Shown one piece after another: positions 2,213 to 34,600 of a DNA stretch of 64,000 nt. Both the position numbers and the translations under genes were made by a program. The DNA comes from Cinnamomum chago. Lineage: Eukaryota > Streptophyta > Magnoliopsida > Laurales > Lauraceae. Every line of letters starts with the position of its first letter. Position 1 is the first letter of the stretch. The stretch spans positions 16,396,501 through 16,460,500 of the forward strand of contig CP142456.1 of the NCBI GenBank assembly GCA_038049695.1, written 5' to 3'. Below the pieces are notes generated by a model. That model saw only the letters and a list, made by a program, of their open reading frames with translations. It ran no database searches and was not told where the DNA came from.

Positions 2213-3870
2213 GGTTTTGGTAAACCTCCTCTTGGTCCATAATTAGAAGTCTTACTTCCATTGTTAGTATATGTCCTACTTCTGCTTCCTTAAAAGTTAC
2301 AATTGGATTAGTAACATTTTCTTCTTAGGGCTAGAATGGGGACCAGTAGGGATTCCTTAGAAACTGGCTTCAACTGGAAATCTGGACCCCACATCTCATG
2401 TGAACTCCATACTCACAGTTAATTACAAATAACTCCACTATATAAATGCAATTGCACTCAGTCTTAGGAATATTTATAAGAAGACCCTAATCTTCTCAAT
2501 TGTTGCAAGTAGGCCCCTCCATCAATGATATCTATGGATTAATTGGATTAAATTTATCCAACCAAATTAGATCCACATCTTATTATCCTTGTGACCAATT
2601 AATCACAGTGATCATCAACCCATCTGATTAACTCTTAATCAATATGGGTGTGCACTTACCAATGATAAAATCCATCAATTAACACAAGGGGATATTATTC
2701 TCTTCGATGATAGATTCCATCTTGAGAACGATATGTTCCCATATTCCCACTACCCTAAACCTAAGACACCGACGTAGTGACCTATAGTTGGCCTCACTCA
2801 TTGGTGACTTAAAGTAAATGTATAGTAGAAACTTGAGTCCATTAATATCTCAAGATTAAGAGTTTATTGCTTGAGAATTATGAGAGCAGTCCTTAATCAA
2901 AGACAGATTTGTATAAGGTGCTACTCATGGTCCTTCGGTACATCCAATGTACTAGCACAACAATCCAGAGTCTTATTCTCTGATGGTTGAGACAGACCAT
3001 ACTATCTCTTAGTGACTGAGGTGTTGGCACACAAAAAATCCATTTATCCATGCATAACAGTTCCCGAGACAAAACACTCATTTTTATAAAAGAGGGCATT
3101 TTTCTGATCCCTGAAGTTTGGCCGACCATAATGAAGGTGTGCTAGCGGCTACTGTCTGCAAAGCTCTCCGACAGCTACACTCTTCAATGCATTAGCTGCT
3201 CAGCGTAATGATACAGCCGCTAATCTTCATTCAAAATATGACTGCTAGACGCTACAACTCTTCAAGCATTGGCCGCTAAGCCTCTTCTTTCCCGGCTGCC
3301 TGTCGCCCACGATCTCCCACGATAGGGAACATTTACACTTCCCATTAATGGCAATTTCAAAACCACCTCCACTCCCCCATGATTTTCGACTGTTATGGCT
3401 CCCCAAAGGCTATAAAATGAAGACTTGGGAGGGCAGCAAAGCATCTTCGATCCAGCGCAAAAAAGGCTCAGAAACTCTGCAATTTTCAAGACTCTCTCTT
3501 TCTTCCATCGGCAAGGTGAGAGTTAGGTAGCAACAAACACTTCTCTATGGATTTGGGCGATAGCTTCTAAAAATTAATCCTTGTTCCTCTCACCATGAAA
3601 GAAGGACAAAGATTGCTTCTACTGTTTTGAAGCAGACTATTTTGCTAATCCTTCTTGCTAATAATGGTGATGAATTACAAAAATTGATGAAGGAAATTGC
3701 GTTGCAGACTTCTCCAGTTTTATCTCCAGCAAACTCCAGAAGGCAGCAGTCCCTTCAGTCTTTTCTTTTAGTCTGTATTTCCCTTGCATTTGATCTCCTA
3801 AGCCTGGTGAGGGGGTTGTATGAAAATTTGTAAACAACCTGTGCTCAAAATGTGAAGCAGAGAGAGCCTT

Positions 3871-8700: not shown

Positions 8701-9330
8701 GTAGTCCATTGTAAGTCCCAGCTTGGGGGCATGCCTGATATAGATGCCTTAAAGATCAGATCGTTCATAGGCATCCTGAAGGGAACGACCTTTAATTGGT
8801 ACAAACAGTTGCTAGAGAATTCCCTCATTTCGTGGGCAGTTCTGGAAGAAAAGTTTTTATTGCACTTCCAAGAAGAAGATCAGCCAGTCAGCTTGAACTC
8901 ACTCACTCAATCCAAGCAAGGAGAAAATCAGTCTGTTCAGGGCTTCATAAACAAATGGAGGGCACTGGCATACAAATGCAAGAAACACATCTCTCAGAAA
9001 TCAGCGGTAGATATGTGCAAGTCCAATCTCAAACTTGAGATTAAGTAGATGGTAATAGCGTTAAGACTAAATCTATGTCTAAACTACTGGAAGCAGCCAT
9101 CGATGCAGAAGACTGTCATAAGGAACTTGATCAAAAAAACAAATCCAAAAGAATTCAAGCTTCCACACCTTCTATATCCAAAGGAAAGAAGAAAGAATAT
9201 GTCTTCAATCTTCAAACTTCAAAGAGTCCCGGGAGATTTACAACACTCGAGCATATATATTTTTCTTAGTGTCGGGACAAATAACCTCGAACTCTTTGGG
9301 CACAAGAGGACCGGCCTGTCTTCTTAAGTT

Positions 9331-10053
9331 ATTCAGGGAATTCAAAGCTTACGCCTAGGGTCCTACTTGTCTTGCCAATTTGTATAGGATGTTGGTAAAG
9401 GCTATAAAGTGGGCAAGGGAGAGGGATGGGGAAAGAGGAGAAGAGGGAGATGATGGTGGTAAGAAGAAAACTAAGCTCGGGCCAAAGATGTTTAAACCTT
9501 TTATCGACCCTCTAGAACTTCTCTAGGTGATTTATTTACTATGAAGTCGTTTGTACTGTTGCTATAATGTTACGAGCCTATCATATGATATTGATATTTG
9601 TGTGCAGATATAAGATTATTCATGAATGTCGGTTGGGCGTTGCTCAAAACCAAATGAAAGCTGGAAACATGAAATTCATGGGCTGAAAACCAAATGCAAG
9701 TAAGACCAATGTTGCTTTCCAATTGCATTAACATAGTTGTACGCTCCTTGGTCTACAACAAGGATTTAGTCTCTCAACACTTTCTAGCCTCTCAAAGCAT
9801 ATAACTCTATCACTCTCTCTAAGAAGTTTTTTCTTTAGGGGGGAGGGGGGGCAAAGATCTAGTCATCAAGAGACAAGATTAAAGGGGCCTTAAAAAATCT
9901 TGAGGTATTTATATCGTTTAAATTTGAGATTCCATATATATATAGTCTATAATATATTATATTAACTCTCATATTCTCCCCTTTCTTATATATCACAAAA
10001 ATCTCTATTTCTATTATTATTATTTTTTTCTTTCAAATTTCATTTTTTAGAAT
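9331..10053. other. No recognisable gene
   Basis: AT-rich sequence between the gag remnant and the hAT transposase remnant. It contains a G-rich tract near 9836-9852, and no supported coding region was seen. The left end of the hAT element should lie here but was not located. Confidence 0.4.
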
Positions 10054-10696
10054 ATGGTTGGACGATCTTCTAGAGGAATTCCCACACATCTTCTTCCGTT
10101 AATTTAAGGGAAGAAAATGATTTTGTCAAAATAGAAGAGGAAGAAGTCGGGGAACAAGTCCCAGTACAACCTACTAGTTCCTGTAGAACAACTAAGAGAG
10201 CTAGAACTTCTGTTGTTTGGCAAGCATATGAAATTATTAAGGTTATTAAAGATAAAAAGGAGGACCCTAAGGCTGAATGTAAATATTGTGGTAAGATTTA
10301 CGTTGCCGAATCAGTTAGGGTACCATCCATTTGATAAGGCATAGGAAAAAATGTGAACTCAGACATATTGCGGGAACTCAAGGGAAAGGGGCCGGGGTCA
10401 AGGACATAGACCCGAACTTAGACCTGAACTTCTACTACGTGGTAGTAGTTTGGGGCTTTTTCTTTTAATGTTGTTACTGCTACACAATCACTTGTTAAAA
10501 TAATTGTCTTAGCTAAATTACCATTTGTTTTTGCAGAAATTGAGTTTTTTTAAGAATTTGTCCGAGCTTCTATTTGCCCACAATTTAGAAAGATTGTTAG
10601 AAATACTGTGAAAAATGATGCTATTGGACTTTGGCAAAGTGAAAAGGAAAATTTTAAAAATTACTTTGTATATATTCCTGTTAAAATAGGTATAAC

Positions 10697-12501
10697 TGAA
10701 AGTCCCAGAAACCAAACCCTAGAGGGGGAGTGATAGGGTGAGCTTAATTTTATGTCAATCATGCCAACTTTTAACTTTATAAAGCAAATTGGGTACAGGT
10801 GATGATTAATAAACCAATGTGCATAAGCTATTAAGATAAATCAATACAAAGCAATTACCACAACACAACGATATATAGTGGTTCGGCCAATTGTCTACAT
10901 CCACTCCCGGCTTGTGTTCCTACACCCCACCGACATTCCAATATCAATTTATGCTTTTCAATAGGCTAAACAATAACCTTTACACTACGCTTTCAATAGG
11001 CTAAGTAGTAACCTCTACAATATGCTTTTAAAATGCTAAGCAATAACCTTACAATATGCTTTTCTAAGTTAAGTAATAACCTTTACATCTCTAAAGATTT
11101 TCTTTCTAAAATGTGTCTAAAATACACAAGAAGAGATACAATTTTAAGCTCAATAAAATGCCTCTAGAATAGGTAGATATGAAATTGAAAGAACAACTCA
11201 AACATACACTCTATGAATGCAAAGATGTATGATTAATGAGTTGTATGATGAACTCAATCAAAATATAAAAATATAGCTAAAAACTGTAAGCTTTTTGAAA
11301 GTTTAAATCATAGAAAAGATATGAATGAAGTAAATGATGCTAATCACATGTAGTTCAAAAACAACTTGATAATAATATGACTAATCAAATGCTCACAAGT
11401 TGTATGAAACTCCAAGGCAAAAATATGTGATGCATGAACTTGTTGTTTCCAAAAATAAAATGGTTTAACTATAGGTTCAAGTGATGGACAACAAGAAGCT
11501 AGAGATTCAATCAAGTGTTAGAAACATACTACAAATGATTTCAAAGATGTTTGCTAACCATGATATAAAAATGTTAGTCTAACTTGGTTTGAATCAAGGT
11601 GAAGAACCCAAAACAACAAATCAATTAAAAGTGAAATACATGTAATGGATTCAACAAATCATAGTTATCATGTTTAAATTGATTTACCAATAATTTAAAC
11701 AAAGCATTAAAAACATATGATGAGGAAAACAAATCTTATTTAGAGAGATTTAATTTAATGAATCAAAGCTTTAGCTTTTTAAATGACCTCTAGCCTTCCT
11801 TAGCTCATTCCCCTTACTTTGGCATCAAAACCCTTCAAAAAGTCCCTCAAAGTCTTATCCTTTGGCCTTGGAATGAGCTGATATTTATAGAAAACCCCTT
11901 TTAATGGCTAGTTTACGATTAGCCTTGACATTTCTACGGCTAGCCGTAACTCCAATTGTCAAATAGTAACGGCTAGTTTATGTATAAAGGTTTGCTGAAA
12001 TATATTCTACGGTTAGCCATAAGATATTCTACGGTTAGCCGTGATTTAACCTAAGGTCACTGAAATGCAAAAAATGAAAATTTCACACCCAGTTATTACA
12101 ACCAAGAGGTGACCGACATGAAGGTCGGTTAACCGAAGATTCCCAGGGTCTTTTACTTGAAAATGATTTTCTAAGAGGGATTTTTTTGCCATGAAAGTCA
12201 TGCTTGGTTTCATGTTTAAATCATCCAAAAGGTGTTTTCAAAACATGAACCTATCAATGCCTAAGATGATTTTGAAATTCTAAGACCATAGGCATGCATG
12301 ACTAAACTAATTTTTCAATAACTTATGCTTCCAAGATTAAAACTCCAAATCATGCATGAAAAATAAGTTTTAAAAGTTATCAAACTATACATGAGTAAAT
12401 TCAAGATTTTAGTTTTTTCAAAATCAATGCATGTGTGAAAATTCAAATGATTCTAAAACGAACATGTATCCATCAAATTGCAACACACAAAATCCCTAAT
12501 A
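10697..12501 (-). mobile_element. Solo LTR, family S1 (right copy, inverted)
   Basis: This 1805-bp unit has perfect 5-bp ATAAC target duplications at 10692-10696 and 12502-12506. Read on the minus strand it begins with the TTAGGGATTTTGTG block and ends GGGACTTTCA. It is collinear over its length with the solo LTR at 3871-5758, but diverged. It interrupts the hAT transposase reading, so it is younger than that transposon's arrival. No internal region or second LTR is present. Confidence 0.85.
11881..12043 (-). promoter_or_regulatory. LTR promoter: GGCTAGCC palindrome cluster and TATA box
   Basis: Read on the minus strand, repeated ACGGCTAACCGTA and ACGGCTAGCCGTA motifs (the second a perfect 14-bp palindrome at 11935-11948) precede a TATA box (TCTATAAATAT, 11891-11881). 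The position relative to TATA equals that of the GTCGAC cluster in the sister LTR, but the core sequence is different. Confidence 0.5.
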
Positions 12502-14221
12502 ATAACTATAGATATATGGAAATCTAACAGTGGTGATAGTTTTCTTCGTATTACTACCGATAACATAGATGCAAAATGAGTTCTTAATAAACGAATAATT
12601 AGTTTTTCTAAACTTGATTGGCCACACACTAGCCAAAGAATAGGGTCCCTTATTTTGGAAAAACTAGAAGAATATAATATTAGGGATGAAGTTATAGATG
12701 TAACTTTAGATAATGCAATAAATAATATAGTGGCTATTGAACTAATGAGATTACATATGCTACTTGCAAATTTGGTAGAGGATTCCATTTTCCAAAATAG
12801 ATGTGTATGTCACATTTTAAATCTGATTGTACAAGTTGGTTTAAAGTATATTGCAGTGGCCACAGAAAAAATTAAAATTTTTTTATTTTATGTTCAGCAA
12901 AAAGAAGACAATTATATTCCACAATATGCGCAGGCATAATGTATCAGTTTTAAAAATAAATTCAAATGTTGAACATAGATGAAATTATATGTATGATTTG
13001 TTAAATAAGGCTATTGATAGACAAAAAATTTAATGAATATTGTGCTTTTCATGCACAAGAATTGTTGATGACCGAGGCACATTGGGAGTTATGCGCCCAA
13101 ATAAGAGATTTATTACAAGTTTTTTATACTCCAACATTATTTTTCTCTGGGGTGTATTATCCAACCTCTAATGGTACTCTACATTGTCGTTTTGAAATTA
13201 ATTTATAATTTAAAAAATATAAAGATCATGATTTACTTAAGGACATTTTAAAAAAATAATAGAAAATCTTAATAAAAATTGGAAAGATGCTCCAATGACA
13301 TTTTGTTTGGCTATTGCACTAGATTCTAGGTTAAAATCACCTGGTGCACAACTTTTTCTTGAAGAAATAAATAATAATATGGAAGGCAAATATTTAGATA
13401 CCTTTTCAAATTTAAGGACAAAATTACAAAAACTTTTTCAGATTTATTGTGACCAAATGTGTATAAAAGGGGCTAGTATGGCCCCTCAACAAGCCCAACA
13501 ATCAGGCGAAATTGACTGGGATCTATTTTATAGTAGACTGGGTAGAGCCTCTAGCTTGAGTAAAGTTGAGACGGAGTTATCCTCGTATCTCGACTCCAGT
13601 GTATTAGCTAGAGAAGTATGATGCATCTAGTTTGGACATTTTAGCCTAGTGGAAAGCATACGAAAAAAGGTTTCCGGTGTTAGCCACCATGGCTCATGAT
13701 CTTCTGACTATTCTACTGTCTTCTATAGCATCATAACTGACATTTTGTGCAGATCGACATGTGATGGATGGCAGAATGACAAATTTAGCTGAAAAATAGT
13801 GGAGTGTTGTGTTTGCCTACGAAACTAGTATTTAGTTGACAAGAGAAAGCAGGAGTTGGCATAAACTGAAAATTATGATCTAGCCGTATACATTAGCGAA
13901 CTAAAAGTCTAATTTTTTTCCTTTTCTTGATTGTAATTTGTAAATATAAAAATCTTTTATTTTTTTATATTTTTATTCTCCAAAACGATTATAAAGGTTT
14001 TGAAGATAATCCTATTGAAAAACCTTCAAGTAGAAAAGATCCAAATGGTTCTCTTCTCAGTGGAGCAAGTCGAGTTTACCGAACCACTTAAATCTGTGTG
14101 CCATACTCTTCTCAGTGTGTGTGTTTTAGTGTAAGACCAAACGAACCACCTAAGAGCATTTTTTGTTTTTTAGTTTAAGACCTAACGAGGCAGCAAGCAA
14201 GGCACGACCCATTTGACATCT

Positions 14222-17010: not shown

Positions 17011-18531
17011 TACCTCTTTAATAGAGTTCAACTGCCTTTAGAAGAGTATTCAATGTTGGAGAATGAATTTCATTAAAAATGTGCTGGAACGCAACAAATC
17101 ATAAAGGAAAATGGTCGAAGAAAAAGCAGATTCGTCGGGAGTATATAGAGATAAGAGCGACAATATATATCATAGCTTGTAGAAAAAAGGAAAAAAATAG
17201 CTGAAAGATTAGTTCTATTTCATAAAAACTATAGGGGCTTTTTTGGTGCATCGGACATCTGATGTGACTTTTTTTAGTAATTTCCACTTTTCAATTCTAT
17301 TACATGTATTTTTATTTTACTTTCATATAATTGGGAACCATACATTATTTTCAAATCTTTCTCCCATTTGTTTTTTATTATTGGCACATATTAATTATCG
17401 GTAATTTGCAACTTAAATTTGCATTAACTTCTTACTTATATAAAAAATTATATTATTTTATTACTTTTGATCTTCTATTTCTAAACATTGATGCCATCAA
17501 AACTTCAATCACGATCAATTTCATTTTTAGAATACTGACCTCTATCAATTCCATAATGACAAATTCTTATTTCTCAAATTCTGATATATAAAACTAATTC
17601 AAGTGAAGCACCCTTTTAGAAAATCTATAACTGAAAGACTTTTTAAGAGTTCATGTTATATTTTAAAGTGTTTCATAATATTTATAATTAAAATTCTGAT
17701 TGAATTGAAATTTGAGGAAAATCCTCTAAACTTTTTGAGAAGAACTTCCATAGTTCTCTAGCAAAAGAAAAATTTAGAACATAAATTTTTTTATAAGAAT
17801 TTACAAGATAATGGTTAGGCCAAAAAACAATATCACATAGGAATAGCAAGTGTAGCACCCCCACGCCCCCACGCCCTCTTCTTTTTTTTTTTGGAGAGGG
17901 GGGGGGGCGCAAATGCAGCAAGTGTAGGCAACCCCAAGGGAGCAAACGAAGGTTGAGAGCCATCAAGTGCTTGAGTAATATATGCACAAAATTGATGTAG
18001 CAGAGATAAAAATACAAAGGTAGATGTGCTGTAAAATCAAGAAATAAAAATAGAAACAAGCGCTTTAAAAATCATTTAATAGTAATATAGTAGGTGATAA
18101 AATTATAAAAATCCATTTAAATGATTTGGGCGGTTATGCATCGACCATGGTGTTGAAAAAAAATAAAAAAGAAAGAAAAGTTTGGACATTTAGATTGATG
18201 GTCCACATGGAAAAGGGGTATACTGCCTAAGAGGATGTGTGTGTAGATAATAAAAATTTATCTTTGAGTCATGCATCCTATCTTAGAATTTAGCTCAAGA
18301 TGAAGGGAATGGAGATTAAGAATTAATGTAGTAAATCCAAACATAGCTAAACATATCTGGGACTGGGACTGGTCTTGATGATGATGAGGATGATGGTGAT
18401 TAATGTTTTGCATCAACTCCACTGTTAAAAACTCATGTGAACTCATATTTCTTACGTTTTCTTCTCCTTCTACGTCACTCCCATTCACACATACTTACTT
18501 AAACATACACGAAGGCGGTTCAAAAGAAAGA
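17011..18531. other. No recognisable gene; likely displaced upstream region of XPB
   Basis: AT-rich sequence with homopolymer runs and a G-rich tract near 17893-17907. It ends at the target site of the 7-kb MULE. Before that insertion this sequence was continuous with the XPB 5' leader, so native XPB promoter elements may lie here. That is inferred from geometry. No clear TATA box or exon was recognised. Confidence 0.4.
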
Positions 18532-18575
18532 GAGAAATTCTATATGCACCCACTAAGACTCCTGAATACACCCAC
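18532..18575 (+). repeat. MULE left terminal inverted repeat
   Basis: Starts GAGAAATTCTAT. Its inner part TGAATACACCCAC is identical to that of the right end. Confidence 0.85.
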
Positions 18576-19024
18576 TTGCTGAACTCACCACAACCATTCT
18601 AATTTTGGCTTGATTTTACTGAGCTCACCCACCATAATCCCCAAACTGCCCATCCAAGCTCACCATTCGTTCCATTGCCTGAATACATTCCCTCGTTCAG
18701 AGTTTTCAAATTTCTGGCCATTTCGGAGTCGTCGACCTTCTCCACTTCAGATCTCTCACACCCTCGTGGACGGTTGGTGAGCTGCGTTCCTTCTTCTTCG
18801 TCTTCTTCATCAGCAGGGACACTCAAACAGGTGAGAGCCCTTCTTCTTCTTCTTCTTCATAGGTTTATCATTTTCACAAATTTGTTTAGGTTGTAATTTA
18901 TGCATTAGAGAGTATAGTTGTGAGACCTCTGCAACAAATAGGGAAGAAGTCCGTAATGAAAACATGAATAGTTTCGAACTCCAATGTTTTCCATTTTTGA
19001 AAACATGGATAGTTGTTCGCGATC

Positions 19025-19246
19025 TGCTCGGCAGTCCAGAAACGTGCAGGGATTTTATGCACGGTAAGTGTAAACCGTGCAGAACACATATGCACGGTTT
19101 CATATTACAGTGCAAACAGATTTTGCACGGTACCATTTCGCCGTGAAAAAAGAATTTGCACGGTACCATTTCGCCGTGCAAAAAGAATTTGCACGGTACC
19201 ATTTCGCCGTGCAGAACAATGTTGCACTGTCTATTTAAACCGAGCA
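19025..19246. repeat. Palindrome array A: 7 units, 33-bp period
   Basis: Units start at 19025, 19058, 19091, 19124, 19157, 19190 and 19223, an exact 33-bp step. Each unit is 24 bp: a TGCACGG arm, a 10-base loop, a CCGTGCA arm, then a 9-base spacer. Three central units share the loop TACCATTTCG. The outermost arms are the variants TGCTCGG (first) and CCGAGCA (last), reverse complements of each other. The array lies in the presumed first intron (18830-19294) of the PMD gene. Confidence 0.95.
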
Positions 19247-19304
19247 GTACAACAAAATATGATAATCTCTTTTATTGGTTTTCATTTTTAACAGATTGGA
19301 TGAA

Positions 19305-21642
19305 ATGCCGAGAAAACCAGCTCGCCGTATTGGTGCCAGCTCACAGATGACAGGGGGACGGGCCAGTTCTTCTCGCGAGCCATCGAGAGTTCGGACGAAG
19401 ATTGGTGTCTCAAGACCGCGTTCCCGAGGTGCGCGTTCCCGAGGTGTGCATGCGAGTTCTTCGACCGCCGGCCGTCAACGGCCAACTGCGTCTGAACGAA
19501 GACGAAAAGTGCAACAGGATCCACTCCCGGAGCAGGTTGAGGAGCATCTTGACAGTTCATCAGAGGATGATTCCTCAGAGGAGGAGGCACAGCCGTCCAG
19601 TCCCCGTGCATCGGCACCAGGAGAAGAGCATGGTGACAGTTCTTCAGAGGATGATTCCTCTGAGGAGGAGGCACAGCCGTCCAGTCTCCCTGCAGGGGAA
19701 CCAGGGGAGGATGATTCCCATTTCGAGGAGGGACAGCCATCCAGTCCTCCTGCTGCGGCGGCAAGGGAGGGTCCTATCCCCGGCGGTCCGGCCGACCTAT
19801 CTGTCCTTATGAGTTTTAGGACACACGTAGCCTTGTCCATATGGGACGGGGAGGTACAATTGCCTTTTTTAATGTTTTAATTAATCGTTTTTCAAATAAG
19901 ATGTGTTGAAGTCTATAATAACAGATATTAATGAAGATTTATACTTGTAATGTGCAGGAACGTGAGGCACTCAAATGTATCAATCATTGGCGAGGGCTGA
20001 AGGATTGGTACATACCTCAGCCCGGGGATGGGGCCGATATCCATGTTCCTCGGTTTCATGCTATTATAGAAGAGTCTGGATTGGCAGATTTGAAGCGTTT
20101 ATCTTATCGATATATCTCCAGCCCTCTGGTATCCAGTTTTGTAGAGAGGTGGCAGCCCGAGACAAATACCTTCCACATGCTATTTGGTGAGATGACGATC
20201 ACCTTAGATGATGTGGGTACTCTCCTCGGCATCCCAGTAACGGGATTGCCTGTCCACGCATCGACTAGTATGGGATTTACTGATCAAGTAGATTTACTTG
20301 AGCGTGGATTGGGCGTGGATAGGGCATCTGCGTCAGCTGAGTTGAGAGTAGCTCGTGGTGGGGTAGTGAGGATGGCTTGGATCAAACGGGTGTGCGGCGA
20401 GGTGAGTCCTGCATCGTCTGTTGAGCAGGTAGAGTGTGCAGCTAGAGGCTATCTTCTGTATTTGTTAGGCTGCACACTCTTCGCCGATAAGTCAACCACT
20501 CGAGTCCCCATTGCCTACCTACATTTACTGATGGACTTGCCACGGGTCCGTCGTTATGCATGGGGGGCTGCCGCACTTGCATATCTTTATCGCCAATTGG
20601 GGACCGCCACGAGGGCAGACGTGCGACAGATTGCTGGATATCTGGCATTGCTCACGGTAATACATATACATATACATGTTCCATCATAATTGATCCTTTA
20701 AATTGTATAATTAATAATTGGTATCTTTTGCAGTCTTGGGTGTACGAGCACTTCCCATTTACCCGTCCTCCTGCGCAGTGGGGATATACCGCTGGTATGC
20801 CTCAAGCGAGCCGCTGGAATCCTGGACAGGATTCTGGGATTGCGAGGGAGAACATAAAACTGTTGCGTGGGAGGCTGGATGACCTACATCCGAGTCAGGT
20901 GAGCACCCATATGGGGTCCTTGGTATCATGTTGCACTTATTTTTCAATGGACAAATTTTTATTATAATAGTGAGTTCTTTCATTTACTTGCCACAGGTCT
21001 AGTGGGATCCGTATACTGGTGTCAGGGCTCATCATCCATTCCATCAGATATCTTTCTTCTGTGGTTGCTTGAGAGCGCTAGATGTCATTGAACCCTACCA
21101 TCCACATAGGGTTCTCCGACAGTTTGGATATGTACAGACCATCCCACCTGCACCGCTCGCCCCCATTCGTGCGTCTCGGGGATCTACTGCTGGACAATAC
21201 AGGGTCTCTTACGCGTTTCTAGACCAGTACTGGGTTACTTGGGAGGATCATGTATTGTCCTTAGCGCACCGCGGCCATCGAGCGCAACATGCATGGGAGT
21301 GCTCACCCGACTACCTAGTGTGGTTTTTTAGGATTTCACACCCTCGAGTACAGAACCCCCAACGTCATTCCCACTATCACCCTAATGAGGGTGTAGATGA
21401 CCCGACTCCAAGAGTGGTGAGTGTTTGTACTTTATCGAAACATTATGCATCCATTTGTTATACTTATCTTAAGTATTGACACAGTTATTTGTTTCTTACA
21501 GATCACTCGGGCGAGGGACCATCTCCGCGCTACAATTGCACGAACGGAACAGCCTGCAGATTTCTATTACCGGGCACTCCAAACCACCCTCGAGATCCTG
21601 GAGGGCTTGCCAGTGACGTACCGACGACGTACAGATCCATGA
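19305..21642 (+). CDS. Transposon-borne plant mobile domain (PMD) protein
   Basis: Five coding exons: 19305-19853, 19958-20656, 20734-20898, 20997-21416 and 21502-21642. All introns are GT-AG and phase 0, about 657 residues. A non-coding first exon probably ends at 18829 (CAG/GTGAGA), spliced to the acceptor at 19294. The N-terminal 183 residues are basic and then acidic Ser/Glu-rich, with a 28-residue repeat (SSEDDSSEEEAQPSS twice, plus a third weak copy). Exons 2-4 carry the PMD fold: RLSYRYISSPLVSSF, FVERWQPETNTFHM, FGEMTITLDDVGTLLGIP. This is the domain of Arabidopsis MAIN and MAIL1, also common in plant transposons. Its role in transposition is unknown. The second codon of exon 4 is TAG (V*WDPYT), so this copy is probably truncated after the third exon unless read through. 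The start was chosen as the first ATG after the acceptor. Confidence 0.8.
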
Positions 21643-21918
21643 TGGCATGAGGGTTTTTTTGTTTTTTTGTCTTATTCTTTTGTTAAGTCTGTATGGATGG
21701 GAATTTAAAGCATATACTTTAGAGGATGTATGGATGGGTTTATCCATTTTTTCGATGTAAGGAATTTTTTGGATATGTATGGATGGATGGATCACTGCAC
21801 GGATGTATCCATTTTTTTAATGGATGTTTTGAGGAAACACTTTCTTATGTTTGAACTTGTATGTTTTATATGGATATGTATGTTATGTGCATCTGTCCGA
21901 ATAATTGATAAAATACAC

Positions 21919-22074
21919 TGCACGGCCACCATGTTCCGAGCAAATAGTGTGTGCACGGCACTCTATTAAGGTGCAAATAGTTTATGCACGGCAACTTTTT
22001 GCCGTGCATTATATATTTGCACGGAATATGGTTGCCGTGCAGAACAAATTTGCCCAGCCATATTTAACCGAGCA
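21919..22074. repeat. Palindrome array B: 5 units, 33-bp period
   Basis: Units start at 21919, 21952, 21985, 22018 and 22051. Arms are TGCACGG and CCGTGCA with a few changes, and loops are all different. The last arm is the CCGAGCA variant, as in array A. It lies between the stop codons of the two convergent MULE genes. Confidence 0.95.
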
Positions 22075-22219
22075 GTTGTTAATGAAGTAATACCTTCTGT
22101 GGAATATTATTAATGAATTTATACACAACATAAATACATAAAGACCTCATCGAATCCATTGGCATTTCAATACAAAATATGTAATATGTTTGTTTACATC
22201 AAATGGATAGTACACATAA

Positions 22220-25129
22220 TCAATCGCTGTCAAGATTGACTGACTCCTGCGTTGCGACACTGTTTCCAATCAATTCTCTGAATTGTTCGATGCTCTTTGC
22301 ATATGGGAGCTGCCATCCGTCTGCTTCAGGATGGTGGTGTCTATGCCAATTTGTAGCAATGGGAGGCATGGGTGATTCGGGCTTCATGAAGACCTGAACA
22401 AAATGGTTTCCATTGACGAAACCAACCGCGAGCACTTTGTGAGAACTTGATGGAATCGGGGATGATCTCAAAGGCAGGAAAGTAAGGCACTGCTGCAGTG
22501 AAAGAAGGACCAACACAACGTTATAATATGAAGATATTAAGTGACCCATGTCCGGCATTGTCATCCATCGATCAAATGAAGGATTGCTTTCAAAGTAACA
22601 CAATGCGTAATACAACTCCCCAACCCTATCCTCTCCTCCATAGACCTGTGCATAATAATTTTGATACCTCTGCAATTCATTGCTCAAATCCATTCTAACC
22701 TGCATCCATTTATCCTCGCCCAGGCCTAGGAGACCAGCTATCGCTCTGAATCCACAGTTACCATCAGCTGCAACATCCTTAATAGTGTGGATATAGGGGC
22801 CCAAAGACTGAGGAAGCAAATGCATAAACGTACATGACCGAGTGCGACGGACAGTCATTTTCTCCTTATTCTTCGTTGCAACTATATTGTTTAATCTAGC
22901 TGGAACGCTATCTTTTATCGACAGTGCGTATTCAAAATTAGATGGTTCCCGACGCGTAGATCTATCCAACTTCTTTCTTTTCGATGATGACCGACCGCGG
23001 GTATTCAATTTTACGCCTGGTTCGATAAGAGAAGTAGATGAAGGACAACCGAGTTCTCTAAGTTTTCTTAAAATCTGAATTTTATCTTTCTGATCACTAC
23101 TTTGAAATCTCTTACTGATCAACTCGAACTCTGAAGTTGTGGTCAACTCAAGGGCTTCGTTCACCATAGTGGCTTCTAAATTGAGCTTCCGCCAATAGTG
23201 GTGGACACTACTCAGTGGTATATGAGAACCTTCCCTTATGTACTCGGCAATTTCATGTGCACATGGCAAACCATGAGTCCGTCGGATTACGCACCCACAT
23301 GATGTAGAATCTGGACCAATATCACTAGCCCTTAACGACTCATTTAACACTATATCCAAAGCATTCCTTGATAGAAATCCTCTCAATTCACGAAACAGTG
23401 CCGGTTTGAACTTATGTTGCACGGTGTTCAAACTCTTTTCAAAAGAAGCCTTTATTTCTGTAAAAAGCAACTCTAGCAAGGCATGTATAACCTGCCAGGA
23501 CGAATCAAAGCTACAGCTCGATGTGCCTAGGTGTCTCTTTAATTTTGCATGTGCACTCTCAGCTCTGTTAGTAGTGACGTTCCCAAAGTGCATATGCCGA
23601 TCCGTCCATGCAGCCACAAATTGCTCCTTATGCTTATTCAACCATGAGGTCTTCACATAATCAACAGCATGTGGATACCCGCAGTAATTCCGTTCCAAAG
23701 CACTTAGCATTTGCGTGTAGTCGCTTTCAGTTGGAGAGACAACCAACGTGTTCCAACAAGAGATAAATGCAACCCATTTGTCGTTGGTCTCAAAACACTT
23801 CTTACAATTTGCCAAGATGTTCCTAGAAATATGCCACCTGCATAATAAGTTTGCTGCATTCGGAAAAATAACATTTATTGCATTCATCAGCGCTAACTCT
23901 TTGTCTGTGACAATCACACGGGTCGTGATGCATCCATCCATTAATTCCTTAAGCCTCTCCAAAGCCCATCTATAATTGGCCTCCCTCTCTGCTTCAATGT
24001 ACACAAAAGCAACAGAGAACGTCAATTGTGTAGATGTGACACCAACAATCTCAAGCAAGGGAAGTCGATATCTATTAGTCTTGTATGTGGAATCCATTAT
24101 CAAGACTTCTGGAAATGCACGTAATAACTGAATAGATGATGGATGTGCCCAGAATAGGTTCATGATAACATCTGTAGCATCGTTGCTAGTATGATACTCA
24201 ATGTAGTTGTTCTCTTCCAAATGCCTCATGAGTTGCTATATTTGTGATCGACCGGCCATCTCTGTCACCCTAAACTTCTGGCGAGCATTGTAGATACTCT
24301 TAATTGTAGTGGTGTTGTGCACATCCCTTTCCTGCAATGTTCGAAGGATGTTCCTCGGTTTCACCAAACTCTTAGACATATCAATCAAAACGTTGATTTC
24401 TTCCATAGAAAGCCTCCCAGCAAACGAGTGCCCCTCTAGATGCTGTGCGTTTGGATGATTGTGCACCCCACAAACCACTGTTAACATCCAATCGTCATCA
24501 GTTGCCAACTTTCGACCCTTCAAAGCAAAAGGGCAACTACACTTCTTCGTTCCCGTTGCCCTCTTAGGATTTCTCTTCTCGAATACCTTCGATGGACTCC
24601 TGTAACTACCACTTCTCTCACAAGATAAAACGACTCTCGGCTTCCGTCCATCTCCACCAGCATCCGAAGTCTTGATTACAATTACCAAGCCATGTTTCTT
24701 TCCAACATCCCTTGTCCATTGGATTAGGCCCTCTCGACTTCTGAATATCATGTCAGTGGTGAAGACATTTGTAAAATCCAAAAGACACTCACTGGCACCG
24801 GTTGATTCAACCTCCTGCTTATCACAAATTTTTAGATTAGCTATTTATTAATTTTGCACGGTTTATATAGGCGGTGCAAAATTATTCTGCACGGTTTATA
24901 TAGGCGGTGCAAAATTATATTGCACGGTATATATATGCCGTGCAGAATAATTTTGCACTGTATATATAGGCTTTGCAGAACAATTTTGCACGGTATATAT
25001 AGGCCGTGCAATATAATTTTGCACGTCTTATAGAATGCCGTGCAGGACGGGAGAAAACAAAAAAAAACGAACGAAATGAAGTCAAAATGTATATACCTCA
25101 TTTTCGGAGATCGTCAACTGCTTGTCCAT
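22220..25129 (-). CDS. MULE transposase fused to C-terminal OTU cysteine protease
   Basis: Exon 1 is 25129-25097 (11 codons, MDKQLTISENE). Intron 24815-25096 holds array C. Exon 2 runs 24814-22220, giving about 875 residues. Order of domains: a MuDR/FAR1-type zinc-binding N-terminus (LSCERSG, KKCSCPF, GVHNHPN); the DDE core with Asp in LIMDSTYK, Asp in VIVTDKELA and Glu in TNRAESAHAK; a SWIM zinc finger (CGCVIRRTHGLPCAHE); then an OTU domain with the catalytic DGNCGFR motif (about 22741-22780) and the His of NGNHFVQVF (about 22384-22416). OTU enzymes cleave ubiquitin-like conjugates. Here the activity is inferred only from motif conservation. One in-frame TAG (24238-24236) lies at a position where relatives usually have Gln, between the zinc finger and the DDE core. 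All other key residues are present. Confidence 0.85.
24855..25044. repeat. Palindrome array C: 6 units, 33-bp period
   Basis: Units start at 24855, 24888, 24921, 24954, 24987 and 25020. Arms are again TGCACGG / CCGTGCA, but the loops are AT-rich (TTTATATAGG, TATATATAGG). The last unit has an 11-base loop. The array lies inside the first intron (24815-25096) of the transposase gene. Confidence 0.95.
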
Positions 25130-25467
25130 ATTGCAAATGCCTACTTTAAATACACAATGTGGTGTAGGGATAATTGTACTTCCAAGTTCGTTCAATAAAT
25201 GGAGGAGACTTGATGATATATTAAAAAAAGTTAGAAGAAATGATGATGAAGGAGATGAAAATCAATGAGGAAGAAGGAGTGCAGAGGTGCAGTGAGAAGG
25301 GAATGGATAAAGGGATAGGAGGAGGAGAAGAAGAAGAAGAAGAATGAATGAGGGAGTTTGCTGGAGACTGCTGCTGGTGAACCAAAGGAGGAAGACAGAT
25401 GTTGCTGGTAAGGGCAATTTCGTCCTTTCACCCGAGGGCATTTTAGTAATTAAAAAATATTTAAGTT

Positions 25468-25511
25468 GTGGGTGTATTCATCACTTTCGATGGGTGTGAA
25501 TAGAATTTCCC
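25468..25511 (-). repeat. MULE right terminal inverted repeat
   Basis: Read inward it starts GGGAAATTCTAT. It is followed by the second AAAGAAAGA target duplication at 25512-25520. Confidence 0.85.
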
Positions 25512-25520
25512 AAAGAAAGA

Positions 25521-25685: not shown

Positions 25686-28600
25686 TTGTTCATGTTTTCA
25701 TCAATCACCCATGTCTATTTTCATTGTTTCCAGGTGAAAAATCCCGTCCCAGCAAGAAAATCAAATTCTCCAACAAGGTTTGCATCGACCCCCTCTCAAT
25801 TTCAGAAATTCCTACAATCGATCCTTGTCTCACCAATCCCTCTCTTCCCAGGAAGAACACAGACCCACCCCAGTCGACGCCGAGGAAATCGATTTTGGCG
25901 ATGACCCAGACGAGGATTCACGCTACGATGATCGAATCGTGAAGAAGAGGGATTTCACGAGGCTGGAGCTGAAGCCTGACCACATGAACCGCCCTCTGTG
26001 GGCTTGTGCTGACGGCCGGATCTTCCTGGAGACGTTCTCTGCGCTCTACAAGCAGGCTTATGACTTCCTCATCGCCATCGCCGAGCCCGTCTGCCGGCCG
26101 GAGTCGATGCACGAGTACAATTTGACGCCGCATTCACTCTACGCCGCCGTGTCGGTGGGGCTGGAGACAGAGACCGTCATTACTGTGTTGAATAAGCTCT
26201 CCAAGACCAAGCTGCCCAAGGAGATGATTGATTTCATTCATGCGTCGACGTCGAATTATGGGAAGGTTAAGCTGGTGCTGAAGAAGAATCGGTATTTCGT
26301 GGAGTCTCCATTTCCTGAGGTAACAAATGGGATGTGTTGCCCTTTTTGGATGTACCCCAGATTGCAAATAGGGGTTTGAACACTGCCCAATAATCTTCTT
26401 AAATGGGTGTGTTTGGATGTACCCCAGATTGTAAAGTAGTGGTTTTTTTTTTTTTCACAGATTATCAAAGATCTTGTTTTATGGATATGCCTACTGTAAA
26501 GTAATTTTCAGTCAACCATTGTTCATGAGAAATCCAAATGCAAGATAAATGCAGCGTTTTTTTTTTTTTCTTAATTCTTTTCTAGACGAATTTTTGATGT
26601 CTGCAGGTGCTAAAGAAATTGCTAAAGGATGAAGCTATATCGCGGGCAAGGATCTTCCCTAATGAGGTGGTTTGCTTATTTTTTCTATGCCTTCTTTTTA
26701 TACAATGTCGGCTGGAGATTAGTTTTGGGGAACACGTTTTTGTGATTTTGCACTGAGGGCTTGTGATGGGTGAATATTAGATAATTATACCATAAAAAAT
26801 ATGTGAAATATGAATTGAGTCATGGTTTGATTCCCCTATGGACTTCTTCCTTTAGATAGTAATTGTAAGATTTAGGTTGTCTTTCAAATGCCTAAGGTTG
26901 TTGTGTTGAATGATTTCCTGGCCAAAACTTAAACCTGATCTGGCTAGGGTCAGAAGCATCATGTATTGATTTGGAGTTAAATGGGCAGGATGCTCTTCAG
27001 TGAAAAAAAAAAGGGGACAGGATGTATATTCTGCATTCTGCCTTTCTTTTTAGATGGCAACAGTATATTTACTAACTAAAGAATTATGAGAAATGTACCC
27101 AATAGCAATCACCGAGATATAGTAAAAAATTAGAAAAGCTCAGCATCACCATACCAGACCCCTTGAGAAAAACCAACAAAGTTTTTGTACCATAGCGCAT
27201 GAGGTGACTAATGAATGGCCCCGCTGAGCAATATGAAGCAAAGAAGAAGCCACATTTTGAAAAAAAAATAAAAAAATTGGGGATTTGCTGTTGTTGATTT
27301 GGCATGCATTTACAACTACTCATCATTTTATAAAATATAAAACGAGTCATCATTCCAATAGGTTAAAAGCCACTCAACAAGTTAACTATTAGAAGAAAAA
27401 AGGTAGAATTATGGGATGACCCATTATAGCTAGTCAAGAAAAAGTTTGGTTGTGGTTGATAAAGTTGGGATACTCCCTGCTAAAGCTTGTTGCATTTGGA
27501 TCAAGTTTTGTGTTTTTCAGAGGACTTCTATTGATGCATTCTTCTTTTGCATGTGCTAATGCAACCATCTGTACTTTATGTTTTTGTTTCATAAATTTTC
27601 TTCCGAGATGAACTAGTACGAGATCTTTATTTATTCATATATACTGTTCTCCTCTGTGTCGTTCATTTGATTATGTTTAAGCATATACATTGATAACTTT
27701 ACTTTCGGTGGCTTTATTTTTTCCCCCTTTCTATTTAATTTCACAGCTATAAATGTGAACTGTGAAGGCACCATAAACAACCAAGGAGAGGCCAATTATG
27801 AATTAAGTTTGTTTAGTTTTTTTGTTGCAATTTCAGTACTCGTTTGATGTTGTTATTCATTTCATTAGATTTGAAGAGCTAGGTGTTTCTATACATAAAC
27901 ATATTCTTGTCCTTTATCTAGGGCTCACAAGGAAATGATTCATTTACAATAAGCAAAACAATGGGTGAAATAGAAAGTGGTCATCAGGAGTTACTAAATG
28001 GAGTTGATGTGGCAGCTGCTGCTGAAGAAAAAGAAACACATTCCTTTGAAATAGACCCTGCTCAGGTACGGTACGGTTTGGTTACCACCACAGGATGGGC
28101 CCATTCTTCAATCATCATAAAATAACCCAGTCATATATCACTTGGCCATGATAGGTTGAAAATGTGAAGCAGCGATGTTTGCCAAATGCATTAAATTATC
28201 CTATGCTGGAGGAATATGACTTCAGAAATGATACAGTGAGTTATTTCTTCTCAGAATAAAGTCAGCACTTCTTAGTTCTCTGGTATCATTGTTTAAGTGA
28301 GAACATATATGAAATGATCAGTCCCTTTTTTTAGACGAGGGTTTGCATCTAAATGATGTATGTGCTCCTTTCCATTATGCAGAGTAATCTGTGACATGCC
28401 TTTTGCATCTAGAGATTTGATATGTCAGTTTCATGTTTCATTGCTTAGTTTTATTATTAAAAAGACGCTGTTAAATGCCAGTCATCTAAGTTACGTTTGA
28501 GTTATCAAATTGAGAATTTGAACAGCGATGATTTAATGTTATTATCACAGTTCCAATAATTAAATATTGCAGTTTTGAGAAGGATTTCCCCCCACTTGCT

Positions 28601-31600
28601 ATGGGTATTGATTGTATCCTAGATACATAAACGATGTTCGATGATCTGTTGCTGCCTTCCTGCCTAACACATAGAATCTGTGCTTGGACATGAAATTGCT
28701 TGCTTCTGATTTGTCATGCTATAGAACTCAACTACGATTAGATCTAGATTTCCTCTGAACCTTCTCAGGGGACTCGTTCCTTGCCATTCGCTATTCTGCG
28801 GGTGTAAGGATGAATCATGTGGAGATGTATTATTGCCGTCATGCATTGCACAGGATATAGTATATGCATTCAGTTGGACAAAAATGACTCAATTGATATT
28901 ATACATTGTCCTTCCTTTCAAAAGATATATAGTCCTCAATATTGTATGACTAAATATATATATATATATATATATGGGAGATGTTCTTGTGAGAGTTACT
29001 CTTACGGTACTATGAGAGTAAGGGGTGGGGGCCTTTGAAATGGTTGACTTGTGAATATGAAGATACTCCCACTTAAAATCTCCCAGAATGCTGATGCTTA
29101 CTCAATCTACTGATGCTCACTTAATCCGTGTAACTTAGATTCTTCAAGTGCTTGAGTGCATGTTAAATGCTTGATTGTCTCGTAAATCCTTCTTTCGGGA
29201 TGTCTTCTTTCCATTCTGTGGCTGAAATGGAAGATATTCGTTAGTTGTAACCTCTGACAGCCAAGGATTAAAGAAGTCGTCTCGGACCCGACTCGGTCAG
29301 GTCCGAATCTGAGTCGATTCATGTGACTTGGCCGAGTTGGGTTGAGTTCCAATTTAGGGCTCAGAAATATTTAAAATTGGGCACAGATCTGTGGGGCTGG
29401 GATTAAGGTTGCAAAGGGATATCCAATTATCGGGTTATCCGATGTTTCCAACCCGGAAAATAACAGGTGTGGAACCTCATTTTTGTTCTGATAAAAGAAA
29501 TCGGATCCAGATCCAGAACCTGTTATCGGATCTGGTTCCGGATCCAACCATATGCCAACCTGAGGACCTGGAACTGAGAGCCACCTGTCATCTGTCCTTT
29601 CTCTCTTTGATTTTTAGCTTCTGTACATATCGACACTTGTGAAGGGGCTCTTGCAGTCACTATCGTGTACAGTCCTCTTACATTAAAATATATAAAACAG
29701 GACAAACATTGATGGCAGTCCATCTACTTTCCGATCACTCATCTCTCTCTCTCTCATACTTTTATTCCCCCGTCCCCCAAAAAAAAAAAAAGATTGAATT
29801 TGTGGGAAGGAGTCTGATTCTCTTACTCCCCGACTTAGAGAATTCCTCGGTTTAAAAAGTGGAACCGACATTGGAGCCCACCTACTAAAAGATCCAAGCC
29901 GCTCAAGATGATCGCCCCTATCGTATATGTGACATTCTCTAACTTTACATTTGACTTGAATAGGAGTTAGCCTCACCCTAAGATTGAAATATAATGAATA
30001 ATGTGATTCTTACAATCTTATGCCTTATCAATCACTTCATACATCATATGATCAACCCAGGGTGGGGCCAGCTCCTAGTAGAGTAAAATCTTAGACAATC
30101 CTATACGCTATAGAAGCGTCCATTTTGAGCAGATTGGATTTTTCAGGAGGTCCGTGGGCCAACTATGTGTTCTACCTTTTCAACTCAGGGATTTTTAAGT
30201 GAGACACACAGAGGAGCAGAATTGGTTGAGGCTTTTTATTGAGACCCATTGTATTAGCAGTGGTGCAGGCAGCTAGTGTTCTTTTAGTTTTCTCCATTTC
30301 TTGTGCATGTCCTTAGCACCAAACAGCCAATCAAGCCTTCTCTTCTCCTCCAACCCAACTCCCTGCACATGCGGCTCCAACTGCATCAGAAAATGCACAG
30401 AGAAGGAACAATCTGAGCTTTCTCAGTTGTCGTGTTCATGTCTGAAGCCCTGTTCTACGGTGTGATATAGACATGCATATTCCCAGTTACAAAAGCCATA
30501 ATCTCCCCCAAACCCCATTTCATAATTCCTTCCAAATCTGCTCTCTCTATTCACACATGCAAACCAGAAGCTCTGTATCACTTTCTTGAAACCAATATTA
30601 CAAGATAAAAAGAAAAATCCACCCCCTCTCCTCTCTCTTGCTTCTTCTTTATGGTGAGGATTTCTCTTTGAGCTTGCTCAACTTCTGGAACGGGATCCCG
30701 AGTTCTCTTGTTGGTATGGTTCCGGAACCATGTAACAAGTTTGGGGCCGGAACTGGTTCCATTATTTAGAAGACAGTTCCGGATCCAGTTTCTACATGGT
30801 TCTGGCCCGTCCTTAGGTGTTGCATATTACAAATTCATTGTGATAAATTAAGAGTGACCAAAATAGTGTTGCGAAGTACAGGCGGGTGTTGGTGAAGAGA
30901 ATTGATGGATCATAAGTGGCCCATGAACAAAAGCAAAGAAGAAAAGGCCAATAAAGGTGATCCTTCAAAACCTAAAAAGGCACTGCAAAATTCAGATGGA
31001 GCCACTACAAAGAAGGTTACATTCACTGGAGTCTAGTCGGCTTGGACTCGGCCCATTTTTTTAGTCCTTGCTGATAGCACCTTTCCTTTAACAAACATGT
31101 AACCAGTTGTGGAGACCTGTCTTGTATGATTCAGTGTGCTAAGTTCTCGAGATATTTGGTCTCTGCCCAATCTATGGCACTACTTCCACAACTTTCAAGT
31201 TTGTGATTGAAATTCTAGGAAAAATGTGTGCAAACTAAAAATTTGTTGGGCTTCTGCGGTAATTGTATGCAAATACCCTCTTACTGTATGGAAAAGGAAA
31301 CCCTGTTAAATATATGTAGCACAATATGACTTAGTAGAAGCAGAAACTATGCTAAATTCAGGTTGTCTGATAGTTTATTTATTTATTTAAATTGCTTGAC
31401 CTTTTTGTTAATGGTCTTAGTGCATTTACTGGATTTCATAGTTATGTTTGCATTTTAGTGATGCTCTTTGACTTTGCAGGTAAACCCAGACCTGAACATG
31501 GAATTGAAGCCTCAGGCCCAACCTCGGCCGTACCAGGAAAAGAGTCTCAGTAAAATGTTTGGAAATGGTAAGTCTTATTTGAGGTTAATAAGATGAATAA

Positions 31601-34600
31601 TGTGATAAATCACAAATGAGACTCTTGCTTGTCAAAGTGCAGAGTTTGTTAAGATCAATGTTTTAAATCGTTGAATTGTGAGGGAGGCATTCGCCTGAAG
31701 TCACCCCTTGCCCCCCCGCCCGCCCAATCCCCATTTTCAGTAAATAAATAATTGTATTAAAAAGAATATGTTAATAAAATTAGACTATAGAAAGCAATAG
31801 CAGTTTGGCTATTTTTTAAGCATTCCAATTTCCCAAATGGTGAAGCTTAACCTCATGATCATCTCTTTCAATAAATAAAAAATTAAAATAAAAGAATATG
31901 TTAACAAAAATAGAACAAATGAACAATGGAACAACGGCAGTTGGCTATGTTTAAGCCTTTTAATGAGTTTTTAAGTTAAATCTAGTTGCAGCAGTTTTCA
32001 AGTTAGAACAAGGGATCACAGATTTTCCCTCTGGACAATCCTGATGTTTAGTAGGAGCTGGGTCTAAACTCCAATGCCTTTTCTTTGCCTTCTCAATTCT
32101 TGGGTTATTGCATCATGTTGATCCATAAGCATGTGGAACAACAGAAATATGCTCCAAATATCATACATGCATAATTGTGTCGTTCTGATACTCGAGAAAT
32201 CTGATCCTTGGTCATCTCCCAGCACTGACTTTCAATTACTTAGACACTTGATGCAGAGCTGACTAGCTGTCACAAGGAAGCCCGTGGTCCACACGTGGGA
32301 CCCAAAGGAGTTTAGAAATATTTTATTTCTTATCTTTATTTCCTTATATATTTGTCATTAGATTTCTAATTTTATTTAGAAAGTTGTAAGTAGGATAGTT
32401 TATAATTTGCATTTTTGATCCTCTTTTCCAAGGCATATCCATCAATTCATAATTGGAAGGAAGTGGTCTTTTCCCACCCTACCCAAAATAGAGTTCTACC
32501 AAGATGGTATCCTCCCCCTCCAGGTGCTCTTAAGCTAAATTTTGATGGTAGTGCCGGTGGAAACCCCAGCCCCGCTGGTTTAGGGGGTGTCATTTGAGAT
32601 TCGGAAGGGACCATTCTTCTCTCTTACTCAGGTCCTGTTGGTTTCGGTTCCATCAACAAAGCAAAATTATTGGCACTTAGAACTGGTATCCATGAAGCAT
32701 TAAAACTCACTCCTCAACGGGTACTTATTGAAGGAGACTCATATTGCGTAATTCAGTGGGCAAGTCAATCTTCAAATCCTCCTTGGAACCTTATTCATAT
32801 CATTGAAGAGTTCTCAAAACTGACTTGATTGTTTTCATGTAATTGCTTGTGTTTTAGTTCTTGGGAGGGTGTTCCAGGTTTTGGTTTCGGGTTGTGCCCG
32901 TCTTTTTGGGATTCCTTCTTGTCTCCTTTTTCTCTCTCCTTTGTAGCGGGGTTTTTTGAATCAGTATAATTCTTTTATACTGTACGGTTCTTTGAGCAAT
33001 ACAATACATCGTCATCATTTAAAAAAAAAAAAAGTTTCCTAGTTTGATTAGGTTTCTTAGTCCCTAAGTTTGCTTTACCTATTTATATTGCATTGTAGAG
33101 ATTCAATCTCAGACTTTTGATTAATACAATTGATTGGATTTTTATCCTGAGGTGCGTCCTCGTGTGGTCTGCAGAGGCGTATATTAGAATGTCCATAGGT
33201 ATGATGTCAAGCAATTTATATGTGTGACTTCTCAAGGCTAATTGCTGCCAAGTAATTAGGAATAGCCAATTCCTCATGATTTACATTCAACAGACATGAA
33301 AGCCTCCATTCCCAATTCTAAGATCAGCCAACAACAAGAATTGCATACTGTTATTTGATGCCATGGAACATATAAAAGAAAAACATCTTAAATAAATAAA
33401 AAACATAAACCATGAAATGTCGCTAAATAAAATAAAATAAAACATAAAATGGATGAGCTGGGCCCAATTGACTGGGTCGAGATAGATGGGCTGGCCCACA
33501 AACTGGTTGACCCATGGGTTTGTCCTACATCAAAACTCCCCTTCTTGGAGAGAACTCAACTTCGAGTTCTGTTGACGTCCGCCAGTATCGAAAATCCAAT
33601 GTATGAACTTTCGATTTGCTAGTTATCTTCGTTTTCTTCACATGGCTTGGAGGCTTGACTCGATTTTTCCCTCCATGTAGAAGGAGAGTGGAGGCATTGC
33701 TTCTTCTGATTTCTGAAATCTGATTGGATGTGAGATCTAACCATTAGATGCTTCAAAATTTAATTTCTATTGTCCTTATACTATCTTCAAGTACTAATGG
33801 GCGATCCTCAAAGATGAAATCAATATAGGGAACCTCTATAATTGGATCTTCTTTTGCAATCTCTGGAACAATAGTGTTTTCTTCACGTGATTCAACTTTC
33901 TATTCTGGAAGTGGGTCTATGTTGAGATCCATCGGATGATCAGATTCCTTTTTAACCATGTTCAACTCTTCAATGTTCATGTCTGTTACCTTTGCTGCCT
34001 GTATCTCTTGATCAACACTATCAGTTCCTTTGTCTTCCATTCATCTGAAGTAGAATCCTTTGGAGGAGTTTAGTCTGTCACTTCACCTGAATTTATTGTG
34101 GAATCATCTGTTTCTTATTTTTGTTCCTCAATAACAGCCCCGGCATTCTCCACAATTGGCTCCATAACATAGGCTTTTGTTGTTTGCGAAGATTTTTCTT
34201 CTTGCAACTTATCTTTTCGGAGGTGGTCATGTTTTATCAAGCACTCAACATGGATTACTTCCCAAAATGCATCATACATTCCTTGCAGTCATTCATATTT
34301 TTGTATGCTTGGTCTCAAACCTCTGATAAACTAATTACATGATGTTCATCATCCTCATCTAATCTGCATAATTCTTGCAACCTTGAAAACTCATCGGAGT
34401 ATTTATCAACTGTCAACTTTCCTTGTCACAAATTGATGAATTGTTCAAAGTATAGGCTTTATTATCATCATACCATTGTTCATATTTAAGCCTTGGAAGT
34501 TGATAGTCGAATTTAGAGGCAAAATCTTGCAATTACTTATTGACTTGGAGGTAAGGACTAAAAATTTAATTTTCTTAAAAAAATCAAGCTGAAATGATGT

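Follow-up and report, generated by a model that had tools for sequence, protein, structure and literature searches.

Phased arrays of a palindromic motif in a Mutator-like element of Cinnamomum chago that carries a plant mobile domain gene

INTRODUCTION

VANC is an anti-silencing protein that binds the motif arrays of VANDAL elements. Many copies of a short motif for an element-encoded regulator are also found in En/Spm, in the form of the TNPA sites, and the arrays described here resemble them in this respect. However, En/Spm belongs to the CACTA superfamily, and its sites are subterminal and are not known to have a fixed 33-bp dyad phase. In Mutator-like elements (MULEs) the termini are where the transposase should bind.

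The VANDAL elements of Arabidopsis are MULEs in which, according to the sections of PMC5735166 considered here, tandem arrays of VANC-binding motifs occur in introns and other non-coding parts. As far as these sections and those of PMC10398659 describe them, VANDAL elements and the locus studied here have in common that one MULE contains several clusters of one short motif in introns or other non-coding DNA, that the clusters grow as tandem repeats and that the element has genes beyond the transposase. The VANC21 motif YAGTATTAY is given there in one orientation, whereas our arrays are built from inverted pairs at a strict 33-bp step and thus do not share the uniform orientation; in addition, the second gene here encodes a plant mobile domain (PMD). 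The arrays seem to resemble those of VANDAL in position and growth, and we do not claim membership. A meeting report of 2026 mentions, in the portion considered, unpublished VANC–DNA structures (PMC12859917), which indicates an active field.

PMD genes captured by MULEs likewise combine a MULE with a plant mobile domain (PMC5418596). The captured domains in that report are transposase fusions, and the part of it considered here mentions no motif arrays, whereas our element has a separate, convergent PMD gene together with arrays. In the same part, Ikeda et al. (2017; PMC5418596) speculated that captured PMD proteins act against silencing in MULEs, without settling what the domain does. With regard to the motif, excerpts of PMC6000157 describe FHY3 and FAR1 as proteins with an N-terminal zinc finger of the MULE transposase type, which form dimers and bind a CACG-containing site (FBS, CACGCGC); the array half-site differs from it (TGCACGG), and the FAR1 match of our element lies below the Pfam cut-off. 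For the yeast proteins Aft1 and Aft2, TGCACCC and ACACCC are given as preferred sites in the text considered (PMC6250833).

A literature search for MULEs with arrays of palindromic or tandemly repeated motifs, which covered titles and the beginnings of abstracts and left most subscription papers and Repbase outside, returned only the VANDAL papers as comparable. The original prediction, made from the letters of this locus, held, as far as its author knew, that such a feature had not been described in MULEs. This does not stand: VANDAL MULEs have comparable motif arrays, at least in the sections of PMC5735166 considered, and the kind of feature is therefore not unprecedented. The palindromic form, the rigid phase and the PMD element appear to be new.

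RESULTS

The element and its genes

The window, that is the whole 64-kb stretch of C. chago DNA analyzed, contains a MULE whose features are collected in Table 1. Its transposase domain (PF10551), terminal inverted repeats (TIRs) and identical 9-bp flanks place it among the MULEs, and with a PF10536 gene between the TIRs it is a PMD-carrying one. The TIRs are imperfect (76% over 42 nt). Two RCACCC boxes lie near either end of the element, 13 and 35 bp from it, so that the two termini mirror each other. Comparing all 9-mers of both flanks, we observed 2 identities in 15004 comparisons; since the 9-bp flank is purine-rich, it is weaker than a random 9-mer and gives modest evidence by itself.

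Table 1. Positions of the element, its predicted genes and the motif arrays in the window
Feature	Position	Strand	Remarks
Left target-site duplication	18523..18531		9-bp flank AAAGAAAGA, identical to 25512-25520
Mutator-like element, 6980 bp	18532..25511	none	imperfect TIRs; PMD and MULE transposase domains
Left TIR	18532..18575	+	boxes YRCACCCA at 18545-18552 and 18567-18574
Predicted 5'-UTR intron of the PMD gene	18831..19294	+	holds array A; GT-AG borders
Array A	19025..19246	none	7 dyad units, 33-bp step
PMD gene, 655 aa	19305..21642	+	five predicted coding exons; splice model from GT-AG borders and frame
PMD exons	19305-19853, 19958-20656, 20734-20898, 21003-21416, 21502-21642	+	splice model
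Single half-sites TGCACGG	19604-19610 (-), 23418-23424 (+)		both within coding sequence
Single half-site TGCACGG	21796..21802	+	between PMD stop codon and array B
Array B	21919..22074	none	5 dyad units, 33-bp step
MULE transposase gene, from predicted second exon onward	22220..24814	-	open reading frames and Pfam
Predicted first transposase intron	24815..25096	-	holds array C; GT-AG borders and frame
Array C	24855..25044	none	6 dyad units, 33-bp step; final loop 11 nt
Predicted first transposase coding exon, 11 codons	25097..25129	-	splice reading
Right TIR	25468..25511	-	boxes YRCACCCA at 25491-25498 and 25469-25476
Right target-site duplication	25512..25520		9-bp flank AAAGAAAGA, identical to left flank

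The PMD frame is open over 655 codons in the five-exon splice model, and its protein matches Pfam PF10536 with an E-value of 7.5e-65 from position 7 to 346 of the profile (340 of 347 positions). Its N-terminal part (19542-19770) is acidic and internally repeated; the DNA encoding it contains tandem repeats of 84 bp and 60 bp. The transposase frame is split by an in-frame stop at 24236-24238 into open stretches of 202 and 671 codons, the shorter of which extends back into the intron. For the first transposase piece Pfam reported AFT above the cut-off (2.4e-6) and FAR1 below it (8.1e-5), and for the second piece the MULE domain PF10551 (E 7.9e-25). Over the three protein pieces the search returned PMD, AFT/FAR1 and MULE transposase domains only, and a VANC protein was not seen among these pieces. 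The transposase N-terminus had no match among solved structures up to an E-value of 1, and its AlphaFold model was unusable (mean pLDDT 32.9). An OTU-like protease at the transposase C-terminus (22223-22930, minus strand), considered on account of a DGNC...NHF pattern like that of an OTU cysteine protease, was rejected as Pfam gave only Peptidase_C65 at E 0.2, below the cut-off.

According to the predicted gene models, arrays A and C are located in two introns and array B is intergenic, between the convergent 3' ends of the PMD and transposase genes. The observed/expected CpG ratio is 0.76 for the whole element (18532-25511) and 0.47 for the flank at 25700-40000, so that the insertion may be fairly young or little methylated. 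In viral_contigs, an exact pattern of two and a half arms of the array had no match. Searches there for sequences related to the larger transposase piece or to one of the PMD exons gave 3 and 8 stretches, respectively, that matched a pattern, and none was confirmed.

Arrays of a dyad at a 33-bp step

Using the 24-bp pattern TGCACGG-N10-CCGTGCA with at most 3 mismatches, we found 18 matches in the 64-kb window compared to 0.68 expected, a number reached by none of 100 shuffles. Array units account for 17 of the 18 matches and the remaining one is a weak match at 23418 in the transposase coding region, while the eighteenth array unit (25020-25044) is missed by the pattern because its loop has 11 nt. 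The window contains 24 exact copies of TGCACGG, where 2.48 are expected; none lies outside the element, and 21 belong to the arrays. The step is 33 bp in all 15 within-array steps. Facing half-sites are 17 bp apart within a unit and the following unit begins 16 bp on, and each of the three arrays opens with a left arm and closes with a right arm, from which we conclude that the unit is the dyad with its 10-bp gap. When each half was allowed at most one mismatch, inverted pairs within the element had a gap of 10 in 14 cases and of 11, 23 and 26 in one case each, and none was found at any other gap of 0–29.

These data agree with the original prediction of three arrays (7, 5 and 6 units) of one dyad within a single MULE at an exact 33-bp step. 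Its 10-base loop holds for 17 of the 18 units, the exception having 11 nt. The likeness of loops within arrays proved narrower than described, as only units 4-6 share a loop in array A. Mirror-image ‘caps’ had also been proposed: TGCTCGG is present in 4 of the 36 half-sites, and 3 of these are among the 6 outermost (P 0.01, post hoc). Terminal units are somewhat more diverged in general (10 of 84 arm letters versus 8 of 168, P 0.07), and the ‘caps’ may therefore be mere degeneration at the array edges.

Other repeats were observed in the window. Positions 3869-12502 comprise two diverged inverted LTR-like copies, 72–89% complementary in their longer pieces, each with a tandem array of about 34–35 bp (5417-5518 and 10950-11087) in opposite orientation. 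This pair of arrays was considered as an analogous element and rejected, since it lies in long inverted repeats that are seemingly of LTR type. Corresponding intervals of the two copies (4252-4386 and 11936-12042) contain different clustered palindromes: one copy has the palindrome GGTCGACC four times exactly within 135 bp, and the other has three ACGGYTAGCCGT-like palindromes (at most 2 mismatches), a motif that appears again twice at 51808-51841, 22 bp apart. Two near-identical ORFs in inverted orientation, about 4 kb apart (56493-57737, plus strand; 61539-62738, minus strand), presumably resemble a Copia-type gag.

Conservation within the unit

In the arms, pairwise comparison gives nearly the same mismatch between arrays (0.131) as within them (0.130). 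In the loops it is 0.48 within arrays and 0.691 between, the latter being close to the value for shuffled loops (0.697), which bears out the earlier claim that arms are kept while loops differ between arrays. Spacers, unlike loops, retain some likeness between arrays (0.535 compared to 0.638 shuffled, P 0.005), which is seen for the pairs A–B and A–C and not for B–C and suggests some common descent or weak constraint there. Equal rates of change in arms and loops had been named as the outcome that would speak against the prediction; instead, 18 of 252 arm letters deviate from the consensus of their own array compared to 96 of 315 letters in the rest of the unit (loops and spacers). None of 20000 uniform-rate simulations was as uneven at any rotation, a search that allows only partly for the arms having been chosen because they are conserved. 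This uneven conservation does not fit simple neutral drift, as had been argued for the arrays from the start.

Among the 36 half-sites the consensus letters are present in 36 (T), 35 (G), 36 (C), 31 (A), 35 (C), 28 (G) and 33 (G) cases. The core TGCAC is the tightest part, with 7 changes in 180 letters versus 11 in 72 for the GG (P 0.005). Conservation is symmetric beyond the arms: pooling the flanks of all 36, we observed T at -3 (23), T at -2 (27), Y at -1 (31) and Y at +8 (34), which gives the half-site TTY-TGCACGG-Y. As to a possible inversion of array C relative to A and B, the loops (17, the 11-nt loop left out) were not significantly more alike than shuffled ones in either orientation (lowest fraction 0.13). 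The observed/expected CpG ratio is 1.33, 0.99 and 1.51 in the three arrays, compared to 0.55 for most of the element's remaining non-coding DNA; this retention would fit hypomethylated arrays and equally plain site conservation.

Pairing of the arms

Over the 18 units there are 126 pair cells, of which 110 are intact and 16 broken, without any compensated or G-U pair. All seven pairs are intact in 7 of the 18 units and at least one is broken in 11. In 17 of the 18 units (15 distinct), pairing was not above that of shuffles (365 of 500 as high), covariation was zero and compensatory changes were again absent. Thus we observed no pairing kept by compensatory change; since changes are few and shuffles average only 0.6 pairs with a double change, the test has little power and the missing compensation is suggestive, not strong. 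The broken pair in 11 of 18 units is the firmer point. Arm changes without compensation indicate that the letters of the half-site seem to be kept rather than a hairpin. The original prediction had left the choice between a two-fold symmetric protein site and a hairpin; the protein site is now best supported, by the absence of compensation and the symmetric flanks, and the hairpin alternative is weakened.

DISCUSSION

Starting from the arrays, their conservation letter by letter, the absence of compensatory change and their positions relative to the predicted genes, we give roughly even chances to the explanation that the arrays are clustered docking sites of a dimeric, element-encoded DNA-binding protein that acts on the element's own genes. 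That a protein binds, which protein it is, that the phase is under selection and that expression or silencing is affected are what we infer here. Each unit would be a two-fold symmetric site with two TTY-TGCACGG-Y half-sites 17 bp apart, units would have multiplied through unequal exchange, and selection would have preserved the half-sites and the 33-bp phase. Occupancy of the arrays in the first intron of either gene and in the region separating the two 3' ends would then control the transcription or chromatin of the element, analogous to VANC at its motif arrays in VANDAL MULEs. The transposase, through its putative N-terminal FAR1/AFT-type zinc finger, would be the first candidate for the reader and the PMD protein the second, the latter by analogy with VANC and in line with the speculation of Ikeda et al. 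(2017). The AFT match, the site preferences of Aft and FAR1 proteins (PMC6250833, PMC6000157) and the terminal RCACCC boxes put the transposase first, with clear gaps. The core TGCAC is found in only one of the four terminal boxes and partially in the others, and the letters after the core are GG in the arrays versus CC in the terminal boxes, GG being the less conserved part of the half-site. With CACCC in the boxes and CACGG in the arrays, it is a guess that one domain reads both arrays and termini. Several points count against an element-encoded dimeric reader: the FAR1 match below the Pfam cut-off, the in-frame stop in the transposase of the present copy, the single orientation of VANC21 motifs, which are not dyads in the sections of PMC5735166 considered, the partly conserved spacers, which are expected from simple common descent, and the fact that arrays B and C fold better than their arms alone predict.

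The reader may instead be the PMD protein, acting as a VANC-like anti-silencing factor that binds the arrays directly or via a partner and keeps the element unsilenced. We regard this as unlikely, even though the element has the PMD gene as its second gene, whose predicted frame is open and spans the PMD profile. The CpG retained in the arrays would fit hypomethylation, but simple site conservation as well. We know of no PMD with DNA-binding activity, the protein here has no other Pfam domain, and MAIN and MAIL1 are themselves transposon silencers. The literature, in the sections considered, speaks on both sides: the capture of PMD-C genes by MULEs led its authors to speculate on an anti-silencing use (PMC5418596) and a similar remark is made in a review (PMC8616336), a set of genes downregulated in main and mail1 mutants has the ‘DOWN’ promoter motif (PMC7156037), and VANC targets also lie in introns and between genes (PMC5735166); yet the same review calls the PMD a domain of unknown function, and the PMDs described in MULEs are transposase fusions (PMC5418596), not a separate gene as here. 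That the PMD protein, alone or with the transposase, is a dimeric factor on the strictly phased palindromic arrays in introns and between the genes, and forms a second, independently evolved anti-silencing system that holds the element's own chromatin open, is in our view unlikely. We judge it rather improbable that the arrays are sites of a host transcription factor which the element uses as intronic enhancers. Two of the three arrays lie in predicted first introns close to both promoters, and dimeric plant factors such as those of the ARF and NAC families bind inverted half-sites, but array B is between two 3' ends and away from both promoters, and to our knowledge no host consensus site matches TTYTGCACGGY well.

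Selection could also act on RNA, if the arrays gave rise to hairpins or to one long foldback RNA that served, for example, as a small-RNA source or processing signal. The array RNA folds far more stably than its dinucleotide-shuffled counterparts (z -8.6 for array A on the plus strand, -8.1 for B plus and -11.3 for C minus), but palindromic RNA necessarily folds well. When arms were fixed and only loops and spacers shuffled, B and C were still stabler on both strands (z -3.7 to -6.4; 0 of 200 shuffles as stable) and array A was not; the self-complementarity of loops and spacers also slightly exceeds that of shuffled sequences, by about 1.9 and 1.8 SD. When whole loops and spacers were reordered, however, the fold was no less stable in 119 of 150 plus-strand trials for A, 27 for B and 135 for C, and in 137, 23 and 140 of 150 on the minus strand. 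From this we conclude that A and C do not maintain specific long-range pairing partners and that B does so weakly at most, its real order folding better than 82–85% of reorderings; the extra fold stability of B and C probably stems from the symmetric flanks of the half-sites. Rfam matches reached an E-value of 1.7e-9 and scored far below the gathering scores (52 bits compared to 114 and 140); mostly to miRNA families, they were rejected as sub-cut-off, mainly structure-based and present on both strands. Together with the absence of compensatory change and the broken pairs described above, this leaves selection on RNA structure quite improbable. Least probable by our estimate, and highly so, are ordinary functionless minisatellites, in which a unit palindromic by chance has spread via unequal exchange. 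Tandem arrays are common in transposons, units A4–A6 and C1–C5 resemble recent duplications, degeneration is greater in the terminal units (P 0.07) and spacers are still alike between arrays. Neutral changes should nevertheless spread over the unit, whereas here they avoid the arms about fourfold; loops are randomized between arrays and arms are not, and the step is kept throughout. The arm-avoiding changes already strain the minisatellite reading.

A PMD gene and conserved, phased, symmetric sites in one element provide concrete DNA targets for the idea of Ikeda et al. (2017). These targets are open to binding and methylation assays. The element would also tell whether VANC-like motif arrays evolved repeatedly among MULEs.
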